DNA from: a bacterium
Lineage (GTDB): Bacteria > Pseudomonadota > Alphaproteobacteria > Caulobacterales > Hyphomonadaceae
Assembly (NCBI GenBank): GCA_016125045.1
Contig: WGML01000005.1
Span: forward strand, 62,001 to 126,000
Length of the DNA stretch: 64,000 nucleotides
Direction of reading: 5' to 3'
The position numbers and the translations under genes are program-made. Positions 2,831 through 57,529 of the stretch are shown in pieces; position 1 is the stretch's first letter; each line of letters starts with the position of its first letter. The notes under the pieces were generated by a model, which was not told where the DNA came from, did no database searches, and worked only from the letters and a program-made list of their open reading frames with translations.

Positions 2831-4351
2831 ATGAGAACGCCGCGTGCCGACATCGCAGCCAACACCTACGACTTCGAGATGACGCCGCTCGTCAAGCCCA
2901 CCGGGTTTCGGGAATACGATGCGCGCTGGTGGTTCGGCGGACCACAATACGCCAAGGCGCCGGAGCTGAACTTCCTCGGCGTGCAGGCGCTCGGCCTCGG
3001 GCTCGGCACGCTGATCCGCCGGATGGGCGTCGCGCCGCGTATCGTGACGGGGCATGACTACCGGGCGTACTCTCTCTCGATCAAACAGGCGCTCACGCTC
3101 GGCCTTCTGGAAGCGGGGCTGGAGGTGCACGATATCGGCCTCGCCCTCTCGCCGGTCGCCTATTATGCGCAGTTCGCCCTCGATGTACCCTGCGTCGCGA
3201 TGGTGACCGCCAGCCACAACGAAAACGGGTGGACGGGCGTGAAGATGGGGGCGAACAAGCCGCTCACCTTCGGTCCGGACGAGATGGGCCAGCTGAAGGA
3301 GATCGTGCTCGGCGGCACGTTCGATCCGCAGCCGGGCGGCCGGCTGATCCGCGTCGAGGGCATGCGGGAGCGCTATATCGAGGCGGTGTCCAAGGATGTG
3401 AAGCTCTCGCGGCCGATCCGGGTGATCGCCGCCTGCGGCAATGGCGCGGCGGGGGCGTTCGCGCCGGACGCCCTGAGGCGGATGGGCGCCGAAGTGATCG
3501 AGATGGACACGGCGCTCGACTACACTTTCCCGAAATACAATCCGAACCCCGAGGACATGGAGATGCTGCACGCCATGTCCGCAGCGGTTAAGGCTCACGG
3601 CGCGGACCTCTGCGTCGGCTTTGACGGCGACGGCGACCGGTGCGGCGTTGTCGACAATCTCGGCGAGGAGATTTTCGCCGACAAGATCGGGCTAATGCTG
3701 GCGCGCGACCTGTCGAAGCTGCACCGGGACGCAACCTTCGTGGTCGATGTGAAGTCCACCGGTCTCTACAAGACCGATCCCGTCCTGAAGGCGAACGGCG
3801 CGACCGTCGACTATTTCAAGACCGGCCATTCCTACATCAAGCGCCGCACGACCGAGCTTGATGCGCTCGCCGGCTTCGAGAAGTCCGGCCATTTCTTCTT
3901 CCGCCCCCCCTATGGATTTGGCTATGACGACGGCCTCGTCGCGGCGGCGGAAGTGCTGAAGATGCTCGACCGCAATCCCGGGCGGACGCTCGCCGACCTG
4001 AAGGGCGAGCTTGGCGCGGCGTGGACCTCCGCCACCATGTCGCCCCACTGCGACGACGAGACGAAATACCAGGTGATCGAAACCGTCGTCGCGGACTATC
4101 AGAAACTCCACGCGGCGGGCGGCGAGATCGCCGGCCGCAAGATCATCGACGTCAACACGGTGAACGGCGCAAGGGTGACCTTGTCGGACGGCTCCTGGGT
4201 GCTGGTGCGCGCCTCGTCCAACAAGCCGGAACTCGTGGTGGTGGTGGAGAGCATGACGGGCGAGGACGACATGCGCACGCTGTTCCGCTCCGAGGTGAAG
4301 CCGCGCCTTGCGGCCTTCTCGCAGGTCGGCGCTTACAATCAGGAGATCTGA
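2831..4351 (+). CDS. Phosphomannomutase/phosphoglucomutase (alpha-D-phosphohexomutase)
   Basis: 506-residue cytosolic phosphohexomutase interconverting hexose-6-phosphate and hexose-1-phosphate, the entry step to GDP-mannose or UDP-glucose sugars. The phosphoserine loop TASHNENGWTG is visible with catalytic Ser128. The metal loop FDGDGDR lies at residues 264-270, the sugar-binding GFEKSGHFFF loop near 350, and the C-terminal phosphate-binding RASSNKPEL segment near 460. Closest in type to bifunctional AlgC/ManB-like enzymes; which sugar it prefers cannot be read from sequence. Its product could feed GalU (30.4 kb). An AAGGGGAAAG ribosome binding site precedes the ATG. Confidence 0.9.
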   Translation: MRTPRADIAANTYDFEMTPLVKPTGFREYDARWWFGGPQYAKAPELNFLGVQALGLGLGTLIRRMGVAPRIVTGHDYRAYSLSIKQALTLGLLEAGLEVHDIGLALSPVAYYAQFALDVPCVAMVTASHNENGWTGVKMGANKPLTFGPDEMGQLKEIVLGGTFDPQPGGRLIRVEGMRERYIEAVSKDVKLSRPIRVIAACGNGAAGAFAPDALRRMGAEVIEMDTALDYTFPKYNPNPEDMEMLHAMSAAVKAHGADLCVGFDGDGDRCGVVDNLGEEIFADKIGLMLARDLSKLHRDATFVVDVKSTGLYKTDPVLKANGATVDYFKTGHSYIKRRTTELDALAGFEKSGHFFFRPPYGFGYDDGLVAAAEVLKMLDRNPGRTLADLKGELGAAWTSATMSPHCDDETKYQVIETVVADYQKLHAAGGEIAGRKIIDVNTVNGARVTLSDGSWVLVRASSNKPELVVVVESMTGEDDMRTLFRSEVKPRLAAFSQVGAYNQEI

Positions 4352-4356
4352 CCGCG

Positions 4357-4563
4357 GAGTCGCGGCGAGACTCGCCCATATCATCTGCATCCCGCGCCGA
4401 AGCGTTAACGACACGTTAACGCTCGCAGTCCCCATTTGGCGAACGGGCGAATTCGCCTATGCCGAATCGCGCGCCGAATCACATGTGCTGGTCGCATGTC
4501 CGATTCGCCGCTGATGGAAAGTGCTGCAGGGACGACTGAATATGACCGAGCCGCTGCTGATTC
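4357..4563. promoter_or_regulatory. Cluster of GANTC (CcrM methylation) sites upstream of the DivL-like gene
   Basis: Six GANTC sequences lie in 207 bases: GAGTC 4357, GACTC 4369, GAATC 4464, GAATC 4476, GATTC 4502 and GATTC 4559. The two GAATC copies are part of a direct repeat GCCGAATC spaced by four bases. In GC-rich DNA such sites are expected only about once per 300 bases or less often. In alphaproteobacteria GANTC is methylated by CcrM, and promoter sites are read by GcrA. That this cluster is functional is inference. Confidence 0.55.
4405..4420 (+). promoter_or_regulatory. CtrA box (TTAA-N7-TTAAC)
   Basis: TTAACGACACGTTAAC matches the full CtrA consensus TTAA-N7-TTAA with exact spacing. 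TTAA is rare in this GC-rich sequence; I found no other pair with this spacing. The box lies 122 bases upstream of the DivL-like start codon and 54 bases after the phosphomutase stop codon, so it is positioned to control the kinase gene. It is also partly self-complementary (GTTAACG...CGTTAAC). Confidence 0.65.
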
Positions 4564-6998
4564 TCGTCTCCGGCGCCGCCGCCTTCGGCCTCGCGGCCTT
4601 GCTCTGGTCGCTGCGGATTTCGGACGGCGCACGCGGGGCCGCCCGGAAGTTCAAGGAGGAAGCCCAGAAGCTGCGTGACCGGCTGGCCCGCGCCGACAGC
4701 GTGTTCGGCGCCCATCCGGGCGTCATCGTGGTCTGGGAGGATGACGCCGCCGACGACAGCGCCGCAAAGACCGGCGACTGGGGAAGCCCCAGCGTCTACG
4801 GCTCGCCGGTGGCGCTGATGGGCCTGTTGCGCTTCACCGACGACGCCGCGTCCGCCAATCCGGCCGTGCGGATTCTCGAAGGGCTCGCCGATTATGAGGC
4901 GCGCGACGGCGCCGGCCAGGACGCCACCCTGCGCGAGCGGCTGAAACAGCTGCGCACCGAGGGCGCGCCCTTCTCGCTCACCATCATCGGCCCGTCGGGG
5001 CGCTTTCTTGAGGCGGACGGACGCACCGCCGGCGCCCGCGCCGTGCTCTGGATCACTGACACCACGATCAAGGGGCTTGAGGAATCGAGCGCCCGCGGCC
5101 GGCTCGAGGAGGCCCGCCAGGTCGTCGCGCGCAATCCGATGGCCTTCCTTGAAATGCTCGGGAAAGCGCCCTTCCCCGCCTGGCGCATGGCGAGTTCCGG
5201 CAAACTGCAATGGGTGAACGAGGCCTATCTCGACGCGGTCGGGGCCGGATCGATGGACCAGGTGCTCGATCGCCAGATCATGCTCGACCAGCACATCACC
5301 ACCCAGGCCCACAAGACGATCACCGCCGGCGCGAACACCACCGACGTGCGCCATGTCGTCGTCGGCGGCGACCGCAAGACCTTGCGCGTGATCATGTTCC
5401 CGCTGACGGCGGGGCTCGGCGGCATGGCGCTCGATGTGACCGCGGAGGACTCCTTCCGCGAGGCGCTTGAGGCTCACACCAAGGCGCACGACGAGACGCT
5501 CAACCATGTCGCCGACGCGGTCGCGATATTCGGTCCGGAGCGGAAGCTGATTTTCCACAACCACGCCTTCGCGGAGCTGTGGGACCTCGACCCCGCCTAT
5601 CTGCGCGAAAAGCCGGACCATGGCTCGCTGCTCGACCGGCTGCGCGAGCGTCGCAAACTGCAATCCCGCACCGACTACGCCAAATGGCGGGCCGAGCAGC
5701 TCTCCTATTCGCAGGGCGCGAAGGACACGCTGTCGGAAGACATCTGGACGCTTCCTGACGGCCGCGTGCTGCGCGTGACCCGTCAGCGCCACCCCCTCGG
5801 CGGCCTCCTGATGATCTGCAAGGACATCACCAACGAACTCGCGCATCAGGCGCGCTACAACGAACAGATCAAGGTGCAGAGCGCGACGCTCGACAACCTC
5901 CGCGAGGCGGTGGTCGTGTTCAAGGCGGACAGCAAGCTGCGCCTGCGCAACCGGGCGTTCGAACAGCTGTGGAACATTCCGCCTGAACGGCTGAAGGACC
6001 AGCCGGACTTCGACACGGTCGTGGAGTGCTGCACGGAGATGTTCCACGACCGCGCCGTGTGGGCGAACATCAAGGCGCGGGTCACCAATCCCGACCCGGA
6101 TTACCGCGTCTCCGACACCGGCGTGATGCGCACCTCCAACAACAAGACGCTGGTCTGGCTCACCCAGCCCCTGCCCGACGGCGCGACTCTCATTGCCTTC
6201 ATGGACGTCACCGCCCAGCGCCAGGTCGAGACCGCGCTCAAGGACCGGGCGGAGGCCTTCGCGGCGGCGGACCGGCTGAAGACCGAGTTCGTGCACAATG
6301 TCTCGCGCCAGCTCCGCGCGCCGCTGACGACGATCCTCGGCTTCGCGGAATTCCTCGAAAGCGAAAAGCCCGGGGCCCTGAACGACAAGCAGAAGCAACA
6401 GGTCGGCGCGATCCTCTCGGCGTCCGACCATCTGTCGAAACTGATCAGCAACATTCTCGATCTCGCCATGATCGAGGCGGGGCGACTCGATCTCGATCTC
6501 TCCGACGTCAACCTGCGGCGGGCGATCGACGATTCGGTCGATCTTCTGGTTTCGACCGCCGACAAGACGAAGGTTCGCGTCGAGGTGCAGTGCGACGAGA
6601 AGGTGGGTACGATTCACGCCGATGAGCGGCGCATCCGCCAGATCCTGTTCAACCTGCTGTCGAATGCGCTCCGCTTCACCTCGCCGGGAGGGCTCATCCG
6701 GGTGGAGGCGAGCCGCGAGGACGGGGTGGTGCGTCTCACCGTCACCGACAATGGCAAGGGCGTGCCGTTCGACCGCCAGCCGAGCGCGTTCGACAGTTTC
6801 ACCTCCGGCGATCAGCGGGGCGCCGGGCTCGGTCTCGCCCTGGTGCGCTCGTTCGTCGAGCTGCACGGGGGCCAGGTGCTGATGAAATCCGCGCCGGACG
6901 CCGGCACGACGGTGCTCTGCTTCTTCCCGGAAACCGCCATGCCGCGCGGGTCACGGGGCGAACTCAATCTCGGCGCCGAGGCCGTGACGCTCCAGTAG
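4542..6998 (+). CDS. DivL-like multi-PAS sensor kinase with Arg at the phospho-histidine position
   Basis: 818-residue membrane-anchored kinase of the DivL type. One N-terminal transmembrane helix (about residues 4-23) is followed by a long PAS-rich region (about 150-560), a dimerisation/phosphotransfer helix and a HATPase domain. The H-box reads FVHNVSRQLRAPL: Arg589 stands where kinases have His and where Caulobacter DivL has Tyr. The ATP-binding N box (FNLLSNALRF), G1 (DNGKGVP) and G2 (GAGLGLAL) look intact, so ATP binding is plausible but His autophosphorylation is not. DivL in Caulobacter acts as a conformational regulator of CckA, upstream of CtrA and CpdR. I chose the ATG at 4542 over the track start (TTG, 4521) because the hydrophobic segment starts directly after it. 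Position near ahcY and tsaE fits kinases of this family in rhizobia. Confidence 0.85.
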   Translation: MTEPLLILVSGAAAFGLAALLWSLRISDGARGAARKFKEEAQKLRDRLARADSVFGAHPGVIVVWEDDAADDSAAKTGDWGSPSVYGSPVALMGLLRFTDDAASANPAVRILEGLADYEARDGAGQDATLRERLKQLRTEGAPFSLTIIGPSGRFLEADGRTAGARAVLWITDTTIKGLEESSARGRLEEARQVVARNPMAFLEMLGKAPFPAWRMASSGKLQWVNEAYLDAVGAGSMDQVLDRQIMLDQHITTQAHKTITAGANTTDVRHVVVGGDRKTLRVIMFPLTAGLGGMALDVTAEDSFREALEAHTKAHDETLNHVADAVAIFGPERKLIFHNHAFAELWDLDPAYLREKPDHGSLLDRLRERRKLQSRTDYAKWRAEQLSYSQGAKDTLSEDIWTLPDGRVLRVTRQRHPLGGLLMICKDITNELAHQARYNEQIKVQSATLDNLREAVVVFKADSKLRLRNRAFEQLWNIPPERLKDQPDFDTVVECCTEMFHDRAVWANIKARVTNPDPDYRVSDTGVMRTSNNKTLVWLTQPLPDGATLIAFMDVTAQRQVETALKDRAEAFAAADRLKTEFVHNVSRQLRAPLTTILGFAEFLESEKPGALNDKQKQQVGAILSASDHLSKLISNILDLAMIEAGRLDLDLSDVNLRRAIDDSVDLLVSTADKTKVRVEVQCDEKVGTIHADERRIRQILFNLLSNALRFTSPGGLIRVEASREDGVVRLTVTDNGKGVPFDRQPSAFDSFTSGDQRGAGLGLALVRSFVELHGGQVLMKSAPDAGTTVLCFFPETAMPRGSRGELNLGAEAVTLQ

Positions 6999-7019: not shown

Positions 7020-8870
7020 TCAGGTCGGTTCAGCCTCGCTTGCGAGCACCGAGGCCGTCCAGTCGCGAACCCGCCGTTCGAGCACCGACATGGGCAGCGC
7101 GCCACCGCCCAGCACGACATCATGGAACTGGCGGATGTCGAACCGGTCGCCGAGGGCGGTGCGCGCCTCCTCACGCAGCTGCTGGATGCGGATCTGGCCG
7201 ATCTTGTAGGCGGTCGCCTGCCCCGGATTGACGAGATAACGCCGCATCTCGGACCGGACGGAGGCCTCCGGACGGGGCGAATTCGTCAGCGCGTAGTCGA
7301 TCGCCTGATCCTGCGTCCAGCCCTTGGCGTGCAGGCCGGTGTCGACGACGAGGCGCACGGCGCGCCAGATTTCGGACGACAGCCTGCCGAAGTCTGAATA
7401 CGGGTCCTGGAAGAAGCCGACTTCCTTGCCGAGCGCTTCCGAATAGAGGCCCCAGCCCTCCGAATAGGCGGTATAGCCATACTGGGTGCGGAATTGCGGC
7501 AGCCCTTCCAGCTCCTGCGCGATCGCAATCTGCATGTGGTGACCGGGAACCGCCTCGTGATAGGTCAGCGCCTCGAGCAGGAAGGTCGGGACGGCGTTCA
7601 TGTCGACGAGGTGGGCGTAGAACACCCCCGGCCGCGACCCGTCCGGCGCCGAGCGGGAATAGTGCGCCGCGCCGCCCGCCTCCTCGCGAAAGGACTCCAC
7701 ACGGCGGACGACCACGTCGGCCTTTGGCAGCCGGCCGAACAGTTCGGGCAGCTTCGCCTTCATCGCGCCGATATAGCCCTCGGCGATTGCGATGTATTCG
7801 GCCCGGCCGGCGTCGGTGTTCGGCAGAAGGAAACGCTTGTCGGCCCGCATGGCGTCGAAGAATTCCGGCAGCGACCCTTCAAAGCCGACCTTCTGCTTGA
7901 TCGCCTCCATCTCGGCGTGGATGCGCGCCACCTCAGCGAGGCCGAGTTCGTGGATCTGGTCGGCCGTCAGGTCGGTCGTCGTCTGCTGGCGCAGCATCGC
8001 CTGGTAGTAGGCCGCCCCGTCCGGCAGACCCGACGAGCCGAGCGGCGTCTCGGACGCCTTCGCGCGGTCCGCCTCAAGCCAGGCGATGAGCCGGTCATAG
8101 CCCGGCTTCATTTCCTCCAGCATCGCGGTGCGCACGGCGTTGTCGAGCTCGCCCGCCTGGGCGGGCACCGCCTTTCCGGAACGCACGAGCTCGGTGATCT
8201 TCGAGCGGGCGTCCGCGTAGAGCGGCGAGTCGGGGCCATCGGAGAACGGCGCACCGGTGATCACGCGCCGCGCCTCGTCGATCGCCTGATCATAGGCGAA
8301 CCGCGGCTGGCGCACGCCCGGCACGTCGGCGGCGACTTTCGCGCGAACGGTGAGCTTGTCGAGCACGTCGTCGATCTGGCGGATGCGCGCGGTGTAGTTG
8401 CGCATGTCGGACACATCGTCGACGCGGTGGAAGTTGATCATGAAGTTCGGCAGCGAGGCGTGCGCCCCGCCGCGGGCGAAGATGTAGCGGTGACGCCGCC
8501 AGCGCTGCGCTTCCTCCGCGCGGGCGAGCGACAGCTCCCAGACCTCGAACGAGGTCCGCGCCTCGGCGTCCAGCCTCGCCGGGTCGAACGTGCGCTTCAT
8601 CTCCTCGACGCTCGCGCGCCGCCATTCGAGATCTGCGTCCTCCGCCGCCTCGCTTGGATCATCGAGCTTGTCGTACTGCTCCTTGCGGCCGTTGCGGGTC
8701 AGCCATTGCGGACTGCGCTGGAGTTCCTCCTCGAACGCGGCGTCCAGATAGGCCGTCAGCCGCGCGCTCTCGGCGGCGACCTCCTCCGGCGTCAGCTGCT
8801 GGACGATGTTGAGGCCCTGGCCGCAGGCCGCGAGCAGGGTGATGAGACAAGCGATGACAAGTTGACGCAT
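7020..8870 (-). CDS. DUF885 family lipoprotein, predicted zinc peptidase-like
   Basis: 616-residue exported protein of the DUF885 family. It starts with a lipoprotein signal peptide (MRQLVIACLITLLAAC, lipobox LAAC), so it is probably anchored to the outer or inner membrane facing the periplasm. The typical DUF885 motif HEAVPGHH, resembling a metallopeptidase HExxH centre, is present near residue 450. Members are often annotated as X-Pro dipeptidyl-peptidase-like or simply hypothetical, and the substrate is unknown. The start was moved from the track's 8900 to the ATG at 8870, which begins the signal peptide and has GGAGTGGAG upstream. It is convergent with the kinase gene and divergent from the amino-acid permease. 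Confidence 0.85.
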   Translation of the reverse strand: MRQLVIACLITLLAACGQGLNIVQQLTPEEVAAESARLTAYLDAAFEEELQRSPQWLTRNGRKEQYDKLDDPSEAAEDADLEWRRASVEEMKRTFDPARLDAEARTSFEVWELSLARAEEAQRWRRHRYIFARGGAHASLPNFMINFHRVDDVSDMRNYTARIRQIDDVLDKLTVRAKVAADVPGVRQPRFAYDQAIDEARRVITGAPFSDGPDSPLYADARSKITELVRSGKAVPAQAGELDNAVRTAMLEEMKPGYDRLIAWLEADRAKASETPLGSSGLPDGAAYYQAMLRQQTTTDLTADQIHELGLAEVARIHAEMEAIKQKVGFEGSLPEFFDAMRADKRFLLPNTDAGRAEYIAIAEGYIGAMKAKLPELFGRLPKADVVVRRVESFREEAGGAAHYSRSAPDGSRPGVFYAHLVDMNAVPTFLLEALTYHEAVPGHHMQIAIAQELEGLPQFRTQYGYTAYSEGWGLYSEALGKEVGFFQDPYSDFGRLSSEIWRAVRLVVDTGLHAKGWTQDQAIDYALTNSPRPEASVRSEMRRYLVNPGQATAYKIGQIRIQQLREEARTALGDRFDIRQFHDVVLGGGALPMSVLERRVRDWTASVLASEAEPT

Positions 8871-9090
8871 TCGGCAGACTCCACTCCGGTGTCGAGACAT
8901 GGATCGTGTCGGCGTTCAGCCCGGTGGCTCTTGCACCACGCGAGACCGGAACACGCAAGCCGAATTGGATGCATGCGCGCCGACGCGGGGCCGGATTGCG
9001 CGGCCAAACGGGCGTGATAATCTCGATTTCCGTTCGGCCATGAACGCCGCAGGCGCCCGTGCTCCCGGACTGATCGGAGACAAATCAGTC

Positions 9091-10635
9091 ATGGACAAGA
9101 CAAGCGGTGCGCCCGTCGCGGGCGCGGTGCGCGGGCTCGGCCGGCTCTGGCAGCGCAAATCCGTGGACCAGGTGCAGGCGGAATACGCCTCGAGCGAGCT
9201 GAAACGATCGCTCGGGGCGGTGAACCTGGTGCTCCTCGGCATCGGCTGCATCATCGGCGCGGGCATCTTCGTGCGCACCGGCACCGCGGCGGCGCTCCAC
9301 GCGGGGCCGGCGGTGATCCTGTCTTTCGTGATCGCGGGGCTGATCTGCGCCTTTGCGGGTCTCTGCTATGCGGAACTCGCCTCCGCCCTGCCTGTTTCAG
9401 GATCGGCCTACACCTACGCCTACACGACGCTCGGCGAGTTCGTGGCGTGGATGATGGGCGCGTTGCTGGTGCTTGAATACGGGCTCGCCGCGTCGGTGGT
9501 GGCGGCCGGCTGGGCTGGCTACGTCGTGAGTTTCCTGCACGATTTCAACATTGTCATACCCCCGGAACTGACCGCGGCGACCGGCAAGGAGATCATCCTC
9601 GCGGACGGCGGCACGGGCACGGCGCTGTTCAACCTGCCGGCGGCCGCGATCGTGATCGCGCTCGCCTCGCTTCTGGTGCTCGGCATCTCGGAGTCGGCGA
9701 CCGTCAACAACATCATCGTCGCGATCAAGGTGTCGGTGATCCTCGCCTTCATCGTGGTCGGCGCCTTCCATGTGAATCCGGCGAACTGGACGCCGTTCAT
9801 CCCGGAACCCACGGGCGAGCCTGGCGAGTTCGGCTGGGGCGGGGTCTTACGCGCCGCGACCATCGTGTTCTTCGCTTATATCGGCTTCGAGGCGATCTCG
9901 ACCGCCGGCCAGGAGGCCCGCAACCCCAAGCGCGACCTGCCGATCGGCATCATCGGGTCGCTGGTGATCTGCACCGTGCTCTACATGGCGACATCCGCCG
10001 TGCTGACGGGCGTGGTGCCCTATGCGCAACTCGATTCCCCGGCTCCGGTCGCGGATGCGGTGAACGCCTTCGGAGCGGGTTGGGCCTGGCTCGGCACGGC
10101 GATCAAGATCGGCGCCATTGCGGGGCTGACGTCGGTGATCCTGGTCCTGATGTATGGCCAGACGCGCATCTTCTACACCATGGCGCGCGACGGCCTTCTG
10201 CCGGGCGTGCTGTCGCGGGTGCATCCGACCCTCAAGACGCCCTGGATCAACACGCTCGTCGTGGCGGTGCTGGTGGCGGTCGCCGCCGGCCTCTTCGACA
10301 TCAACACGCTCGGCGATCTCACCTCGATCGGCACGCTCGCCGCATTCGCGATCGTGTGCATCAGCGTGATCTGGCTGCGCCAGACGCGGCCCGACCTGCC
10401 GCGCGGGTTCAAGACGCCGCTTTATCCGATCACGCCGATCCTCGGCATCCTCTCCTGCCTGTTCCTGATCTTTCAGGTGGAGCCGCGGGTGCAGCTGTTC
10501 TTCCTGGTCTTCCTCGTCGGCGCGGTGGCGGTGTATTTCGTCTACAGCCTGCACCACTCCAAGCTCGGCAAGGGCGTGATCGTGAGCGGGCACGAGCCGT
10601 CGCCGGACGAAATTCTTGCTCCGCCGCCACACTGA
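9091..10635 (+). CDS. Amino-acid permease, APC superfamily (cationic amino acid transporter type)
   Basis: 514-residue inner-membrane transporter with about 12 hydrophobic helices. The first helix carries the APC signature GIGCIIGAGIFVRTG, followed by the segments typical of the CAT/YfnA subfamily: YAELASALPVSGSAYTY, FFAYIGFEAISTAGQEARNP and RIFYTMARDGLLP. Such permeases take up cationic or other amino acids; the substrate cannot be set from sequence. The track extends the ORF to a TTG/ATG-like start at 8899. I chose the ATG at 9091 because the conserved N-terminus begins there and the upstream part is not transporter-like. It stands alone, divergent from the DUF885 lipoprotein. Confidence 0.9.
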   Translation: MDKTSGAPVAGAVRGLGRLWQRKSVDQVQAEYASSELKRSLGAVNLVLLGIGCIIGAGIFVRTGTAAALHAGPAVILSFVIAGLICAFAGLCYAELASALPVSGSAYTYAYTTLGEFVAWMMGALLVLEYGLAASVVAAGWAGYVVSFLHDFNIVIPPELTAATGKEIILADGGTGTALFNLPAAAIVIALASLLVLGISESATVNNIIVAIKVSVILAFIVVGAFHVNPANWTPFIPEPTGEPGEFGWGGVLRAATIVFFAYIGFEAISTAGQEARNPKRDLPIGIIGSLVICTVLYMATSAVLTGVVPYAQLDSPAPVADAVNAFGAGWAWLGTAIKIGAIAGLTSVILVLMYGQTRIFYTMARDGLLPGVLSRVHPTLKTPWINTLVVAVLVAVAAGLFDINTLGDLTSIGTLAAFAIVCISVIWLRQTRPDLPRGFKTPLYPITPILGILSCLFLIFQVEPRVQLFFLVFLVGAVAVYFVYSLHHSKLGKGVIVSGHEPSPDEILAPPPH

Positions 10636-14816: not shown

Positions 14817-15161
14817 ATGCTCCTGTTCCGCATCTTCCTGATCGCGTTTCTCATCTTCCTTTCCGTCTATACCGGCGTCGTCATCGCCAATCACGGATGG
14901 AACCTGTTCGCCGTCTTCTTCGGCGACCTGCTCGCGATGACCTGGCCGGGCCAGTTCAACGCCGACTTCCTCGGCTTCCTCATGCTGTCCGCGATCTGGA
15001 CCGCGTGGCGCCATCAGTACTCGGCGCTCGGCCTCGCGCTCAGCGTGGCGGCGTTCTTCGGCGGCATGATATTCCTGACGATCTATCTGACCATCGAGAC
15101 GGGACGCGCGCGCGGCGACGTGCGCGAGCTTCTGCTCGGGCGGGCCCGGGCGCGGAGCTGA
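14817..15161 (+). CDS. Small three-helix membrane protein, function unknown
   Basis: 114 residues with three hydrophobic helices: MLLFRIFLIAFLIFLSVYTGVVI at the N-terminus, a segment around LGFLMLSAIWTAW, and LALSVAAFFGGMIFLTIYLT. The C-terminal tail is basic (RARGDVRELLLGRARARS). The track starts the ORF at 14550, but the upstream part is low-complexity and overlaps the MprF-like gene. The ATG at 14817 begins the first helix directly. I do not recognise a family. It lies 124 bases after the MprF-like gene and is convergent with the ferredoxin gene. Confidence 0.65.
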   Translation: MLLFRIFLIAFLIFLSVYTGVVIANHGWNLFAVFFGDLLAMTWPGQFNADFLGFLMLSAIWTAWRHQYSALGLALSVAAFFGGMIFLTIYLTIETGRARGDVRELLLGRARARS

Positions 15162-57064: not shown

Positions 57065-57424
57065 TCAGGCCGCGACCACGCGCTCCACCTCGGCCACCAG
57101 GTCCTTCAGGTGGAAGGGCTTGGACAGGACGCGCGCCTCCTTGGGCGCCGGGTGATTCTGGCTCAGCGCCACGGCCGCGAAGCCCGTGATGAACATGATC
57201 TTCATGGCCGGATCGAGCTCCGCCCCCCGCCGCGCCAGCTCGATCCCGTCAAGCCCCGGCATCACGATGTCGGTCAGCAGAAGGTCGAACACCTCGCGTT
57301 CAAGCGCCGTCAGCGCCTGGCGGCCGTCGTCGAACGCCCGCACCGAATGGCCCGCCCGCACCAGCGCGTTGGACAGAAAGCCGCGCAGGCTGTCGTCGTC
57401 TTCCGCGAGCAGGATCTTCACCAT
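57065..57424 (-). CDS. cpdR: Single-domain response regulator CpdR
   Basis: 119-residue receiver-only protein matching CpdR in length and motifs: acidic pocket ILLAEDDDS, phospho-acceptor Asp52 in LLTDIVMPGLDG, conserved Thr in FITGFA and Lys in VLSKPF. In Caulobacter, unphosphorylated CpdR is an adaptor that primes ClpXP for cell-cycle substrates and helps CtrA degradation; CckA-ChpT controls its phosphorylation. The protein ends in VVAA, consistent with the alanine-ended tail linked to its own ClpXP turnover. The start ATG 57424 was chosen (the track begins ten codons earlier); ATG 57430 is possible. It is divergent from an N-formylglutamate amidohydrolase gene, a neighbourhood common in alphaproteobacteria. 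Confidence 0.88.
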   Translation of the reverse strand: MVKILLAEDDDSLRGFLSNALVRAGHSVRAFDDGRQALTALEREVFDLLLTDIVMPGLDGIELARRGAELDPAMKIMFITGFAAVALSQNHPAPKEARVLSKPFHLKDLVAEVERVVAA

Positions 57425-57529
57425 TCCCATCGTCCGCATCAGCCTTCCCGACATCTATGCTAGACCGTGTGCACGTCGCGGGTAAAGCCGACGTGAAGAT
57501 GCCGCCTTGACGATCCGTGCGCACCGGCA

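Follow-up and report, generated by a model that had tools for sequence, protein, structure and literature searches.

A CtrA box kept upstream of divL across the Hyphomonadaceae very probably marks a CtrA–divL feedback loop

Our analysis points to the region in front of divL in a Hyphomonadaceae genome as a cell-cycle promoter—a reading that we hold at a probability of roughly 0.72—in which phosphorylated CtrA (CtrA~P) at a full box in positions 4405-4420 would control divL and so close a regulatory loop, with an additional GcrA input probable at position 4502. The box is conserved throughout the Hyphomonadaceae, and for this reason it very probably marks a real CtrA–divL feedback loop, as judged from sequence comparison. 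The window, i.e., the whole 64,000-nucleotide stretch of DNA analysed, spans C5:62001-126000 of a 2.96-Mb genome assembled in 13 contigs and 82% complete. Its divL gene follows a phosphomannomutase gene, and the 190-bp gap between that gene and the divL ATG (position 4542) holds the CtrA box and five GANTC sites. The features are as follows (positions are those of the window).

2831-4351, plus strand: phosphomannomutase/phosphoglucomutase gene, upstream of divL and on the same strand
4357-4361, no strand: GANTC (GAGTC), starting 5 bases past the stop codon of the phosphomannomutase gene; not conserved
4369-4373, no strand: GANTC (GACTC); not conserved
4401-4423, no strand: perfect inverted repeat AGCGTTAACG-ACA-CGTTAACGCT with 10-bp arms, enclosing the CtrA box (from the sequence)
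4405-4420, plus strand: full CtrA box TTAACGACACGTTAAC, an exact TTAA-N7-TTAAC motif match, kept across the family
4440-4444, plus strand: CGAAC, degraded counterpart of a third TTAAC present in relatives (by comparison with them)
4464-4468, no strand: GANTC (GAATC), minus-strand CGATTCG fitting YGAKTCK; not conserved
4476-4480, no strand: GANTC (GAATC), minus-strand TGATTCG fitting YGAKTCK; not conserved
4502-4506, no strand: GANTC (GATTC), 40 nt before the ATG; candidate GcrA/CcrM site with a counterpart in most relatives
4542-6998, plus strand: divL, 818 amino acids, with an N-terminal hydrophobic segment, PAS domains, HisKA and HATPase_c
4559-4563, no strand: GANTC (GATTC) within the divL coding sequence; not conserved
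6306-6308, plus strand: CGC codon of Arg589, at the place of the pseudokinase tyrosine (C. crescentus Tyr550) by alignment

The original prediction spoke of a DivL-like gene, and its identity as divL is now established on several grounds: the architecture of PAS domains followed by HisKA and HATPase_c, a closest solved structure that is C. crescentus DivL itself (4q20, E 2.3e-57) and orthology within the family, where identities of 54-73% extend over nearly the full length. The gene is single-copy, the next-best match in its own genome reaching 37% over ~250 residues. By DivL, the nearest relatives are Hyphomonadaceae and alphaproteobacterial MAGs, with a top identity of 73%. Both ctrA and ccrM, on which the prediction depended, are encoded in the genome: CtrA scored 397 bits, the cut-off being 350 (NF045991), and CcrM (by its RAMA domain), GcrA and ChpT all lie above curated cut-offs. 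The genome also encodes a full-length CckA-like kinase (531 bits; the model is Brucella-specific, and Caulobacter does not pass it either).

The exact TTAA-N7-TTAAC site was found where it had been predicted, and since it sits within a perfect inverted repeat it can also be read on the minus strand, at 4404-4419. The motif did not occur in any of 100 shuffles of the window, and a pattern search for TTAA-N7-TTAA over the whole 2.96-Mb genome returned six sites, the divL box among them. The other five lie before flgBC-fliE/fliOP (two sites), gcrA, motA and a divergent gamma-carbonic-anhydrase/phoH-like gene pair; the neighbours were named from their translations, except gcrA, which was recognised by a family match. 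Since flagellar genes and gcrA belong to the textbook targets of CtrA, the motif behaves here as one expects of a CtrA motif. At gcrA, the full box stands ~140 bp upstream (C2:482065), which fits CtrA control of that gene here. The motA box (stretch C5:158001-178000) has as its divergent neighbour a gene for a long protein (7229-10441 of that stretch, minus strand), which combines a subtilase-like part with a GDISPFY/W-type heptapeptide repeated in tandem ~20 times.

Comparison with relatives, which the prediction had proposed as a check, gave a strong result for the CtrA box. Across 35 Hyphomonadaceae genomes in which the sequence before divL was readable, the window's own included, TTAA-N7-TTAA stood at the equivalent place in every one (35/35); outside the family it was present at divL in 1 of 15 relatives from the same order. 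In a set of 80 named divL loci that overlaps the family set and totals 701 kb, 69 carried the motif within 330 bp upstream of divL, and it was found nowhere else in that DNA. The phosphomannomutase gene was found in only 10 of these 80 loci; the box is thus tied to divL and not to its upstream neighbour. The presence of a motif by itself never proves function, and the matches could in principle be accidents of a GC-rich intergenic region without regulatory meaning. Set against the empty shuffles, the six sites in 2.96 Mb and the 69 upstream matches versus none elsewhere in 701 kb of relatives, this explanation is extremely improbable.

With the box taken as functional, CtrA~P bound there would control divL transcription. 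Since CckA–ChpT phosphorylate CtrA, and DivL in turn promotes the kinase activity of CckA, CtrA would thereby act back on its own activator and close a loop. The sign of this loop is best approached through the geometry of the region. In most relatives, a third TTAAC occurs 33-35 nt past the box start, leaving 16-18 bp between it and the second TTAA half, here taken as a -35 hexamer. The third TTAAC may be a -10-like element or a third CtrA half-site. The box would thus lie upstream of the likely -35 region and overlap it, an arrangement suggesting activation and positive feedback in predivisional cells. The reverse arrangement, in which the bound box blocks the promoter and negative feedback limits CtrA activation, has a precedent in Caulobacter, where full boxes near -35 activate and the same ctrA box that activates P2 from -39 likely represses P3 from -14 (PMC4287350); a third half-site in the relatives would also suit it. 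However, the box is placed 137 bp before the divL ATG, and the 16-18 bp spacing suits a -35 and a -10 element, the box then lying on the activating side, that of the -35. On balance the geometry favours activation of divL by CtrA as the likely sign, and repression appears unlikely, if not strikingly so. In the window's own genome the promoter may have drifted, since the third TTAAC is lost (CGAAC at 4440) and no sigma-70-like promoter passed a consensus scan; a terminator scan was likewise empty.

As for DNA methylation, the prediction had counted six CcrM sites within about 200 bases in front of the kinase gene. Six GANTC sites do fall in 207 bp, which is unusual (scan statistic P ~0.002, assuming uniform placement) in a window where the motif is depleted overall (103 occurrences versus 360 expected), but the site at 4559-4563 lies past the ATG at 4542, so that five, not six, precede divL. 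Against a background sample of the window plus 20 further stretches—464 kb, or ~16% of the genome—this cluster was the densest, followed by two groups of five. One of these lies directly upstream of ctrA (C9:277001-297000, at ~10410 of the stretch), is the second densest sampled and is accompanied by three TTAA half-sites; the other, at C2:265852 (14852-14920 of stretch C2:251001-271000), was set aside as a short tandem repeat with GAGTC or GAATC every ~12 bases.

One could take the whole cluster as the regulatory element, with six methylation sites tying divL transcription to passage of the replication fork. The density of the cluster, ranking beside the five-site ctrA promoter, speaks for this, and five of the six sites fit YGAKTCK in one orientation. 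The relatives tell against it: at least one GANTC occurs in the 250 bp upstream of divL in 75 of the 80 named loci (31% expected), yet mostly as one or two sites (none in 5 loci, one in 53, two in 16, three in 1, four in 4 and five in 1). Moreover, five of the six sites, including the one within the coding sequence, lack conservation, and GcrA targets with a single GANTC are activated in Brevundimonas subvibrioides, without the extended motif (PMC7987155). A role for the cluster as a whole is thus doubtful, marginally more so than repression by CtrA. Separately built GANTC clusters do exist in other lineages (loci L085, L105 and L138). Of the motif pair proposed for comparison, the CtrA box is retained, and of the six GANTC sites only that at 4502 is matched near the equivalent position in most relatives. 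The feedback idea itself gains from the divL identity, the encoded CtrA pathway and the conserved box; timing by methylation state is not supported as it was stated, because five of the six sites are not conserved, and what is left of it is one conserved GATTCG.

Returning to the preferred reading, in which CtrA acts through the box, this remaining site would probably provide a second, independent input through GcrA bound to the CcrM-methylated GATTCG at 4502. The heptamer CGATTCG (4501-4507) fits the extended motif YGAKTCK, and the nearest groups of relatives share a GATTC at about -35 to -55; in other relatives the counterpart lies farther from the aligned start, and the match there does not set in until after the likely start codon. 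If transcription began 24-29 nt past GATTC, as at podJ and ctrA of Caulobacter, the GcrA-dependent start would fall ~11-16 nt before the ATG. Together with a CtrA-dependent start, this would give divL two promoters, as at ctrA. C. crescentus and B. subvibrioides both include divL in their published GcrA regulons, and the site is best read as a GcrA/CcrM input of this kind; GcrA control of divL has also been predicted in most of 23 Caulobacteraceae/Hyphomonadaceae (PMC7987155). Like those systems, the present one has a GANTC (YGAKTCK) near the divL start; it differs in that the family adds a CtrA box, a full box being found in 1 of 15 same-order relatives outside it. The Caulobacter ctrA promoters P1/P2 also combine a CtrA box and a separate GANTC/GcrA input in one region (PMC4287350), but they control ctrA itself, whereas at divL the conserved GATTC follows the box and lies close to the start codon.

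A CtrA–divL loop is not new in principle, having been published in Dinoroseobacter shibae and predicted for Rhodobacterales. In D. shibae, a CtrA site lies in the divL promoter and expression of the divL homolog is CtrA-dependent, being lower in ctrA, chpT and cckA mutants (PMC4046655), and for the Rhodobacterales CtrA control of divL was predicted and the feedback noted (PMC2877005). The D. shibae homolog is, however, weakly conserved, and the cluster B DivL of Rhodobacterales lacks a kinase domain and occurs without DivK, DivJ and PleC (PMC2877005), in contrast to the full-length DivL of the Hyphomonadaceae. Within the family, the main-text passages of a CtrA ChIP-seq study of Hyphomonas neptunium (PMC7200025) give a consensus, TTAA-N7-TTAAC, identical to the box described here. 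These passages report direct autoregulation of ctrA, do not name divL as a direct target and describe many CtrA-bound genes as unchanged on CckA/ChpT depletion. No description of a family-wide CtrA box at divL in Hyphomonadaceae was found in the literature examined. Judged by sequence, the box would carry direct CtrA control of divL beyond the Rhodobacterales to the Hyphomonadaceae as a whole, among which are budding, stalked bacteria. For one of these, H. neptunium, the same study reports that DivK is dispensable and DivL essential, and it inferred that factors besides DivK control DivL (PMC7200025); the family-wide box is a concrete candidate for part of this non-DivK control.

The DivL protein encoded in the window carries peculiarities of its own. 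At the position of the pseudokinase tyrosine, all 79 readable named relatives have Tyr (TAC/TAT), versus Arg589 here. In a 36-sequence alignment, this protein alone departs from the common residue at eight otherwise universal positions; three of the changes—Y589R, S593A and Y601F, equivalent by alignment to C. crescentus residues 550, 554 and 562—lie within 13 residues of the H-box. Relaxed selection on the whole protein was rejected as an explanation: other long branches bear 10, 8 and 8 lineage-unique changes at near-universal positions, so the gene does not look like one in decay. The tyrosine is typical of DivL and not universal, being Ala in Magnetospirillum (PMC4211667), and we therefore call the protein a variant DivL by orthology; the literature examined held no description of a DivL with Arg at this position. 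In C. crescentus, DivK~P binds more weakly to the Y562A variant but not to Y550H, which nonetheless perturbs function (PMC4211667).

No DivK ortholog was found in the 82%-complete assembly (best match 32% identity), although 59 of 60 relatives have a DivK of at least 55% identity. We do not claim a loss of DivK: its operon partner PleD and a neighbouring acyltransferase gene that relatives conserve are missing from the same assembly, so that the absence may reflect an assembly gap, an unassembled block accounting for it no less well than loss. Taken together with Arg589, S593A and Y601F, which map to the surface corresponding to the docking site for DivK~P, the missing DivK could mean that DivL has been freed from DivK in this lineage and is set mainly by transcription from the CtrA box, with GcrA—a scenario that we regard as quite improbable. 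Were it correct, promoter feedback would be the main control of CckA activation in a DivK-freed lineage. A candidate DivK at C9:275777 was rejected as a CheY-like protein inside a chemotaxis cluster. The window also encodes a single-domain response regulator of 129 amino acids (57065-57454, minus strand), which we take to resemble CpdR, a CtrA-proteolysis factor.
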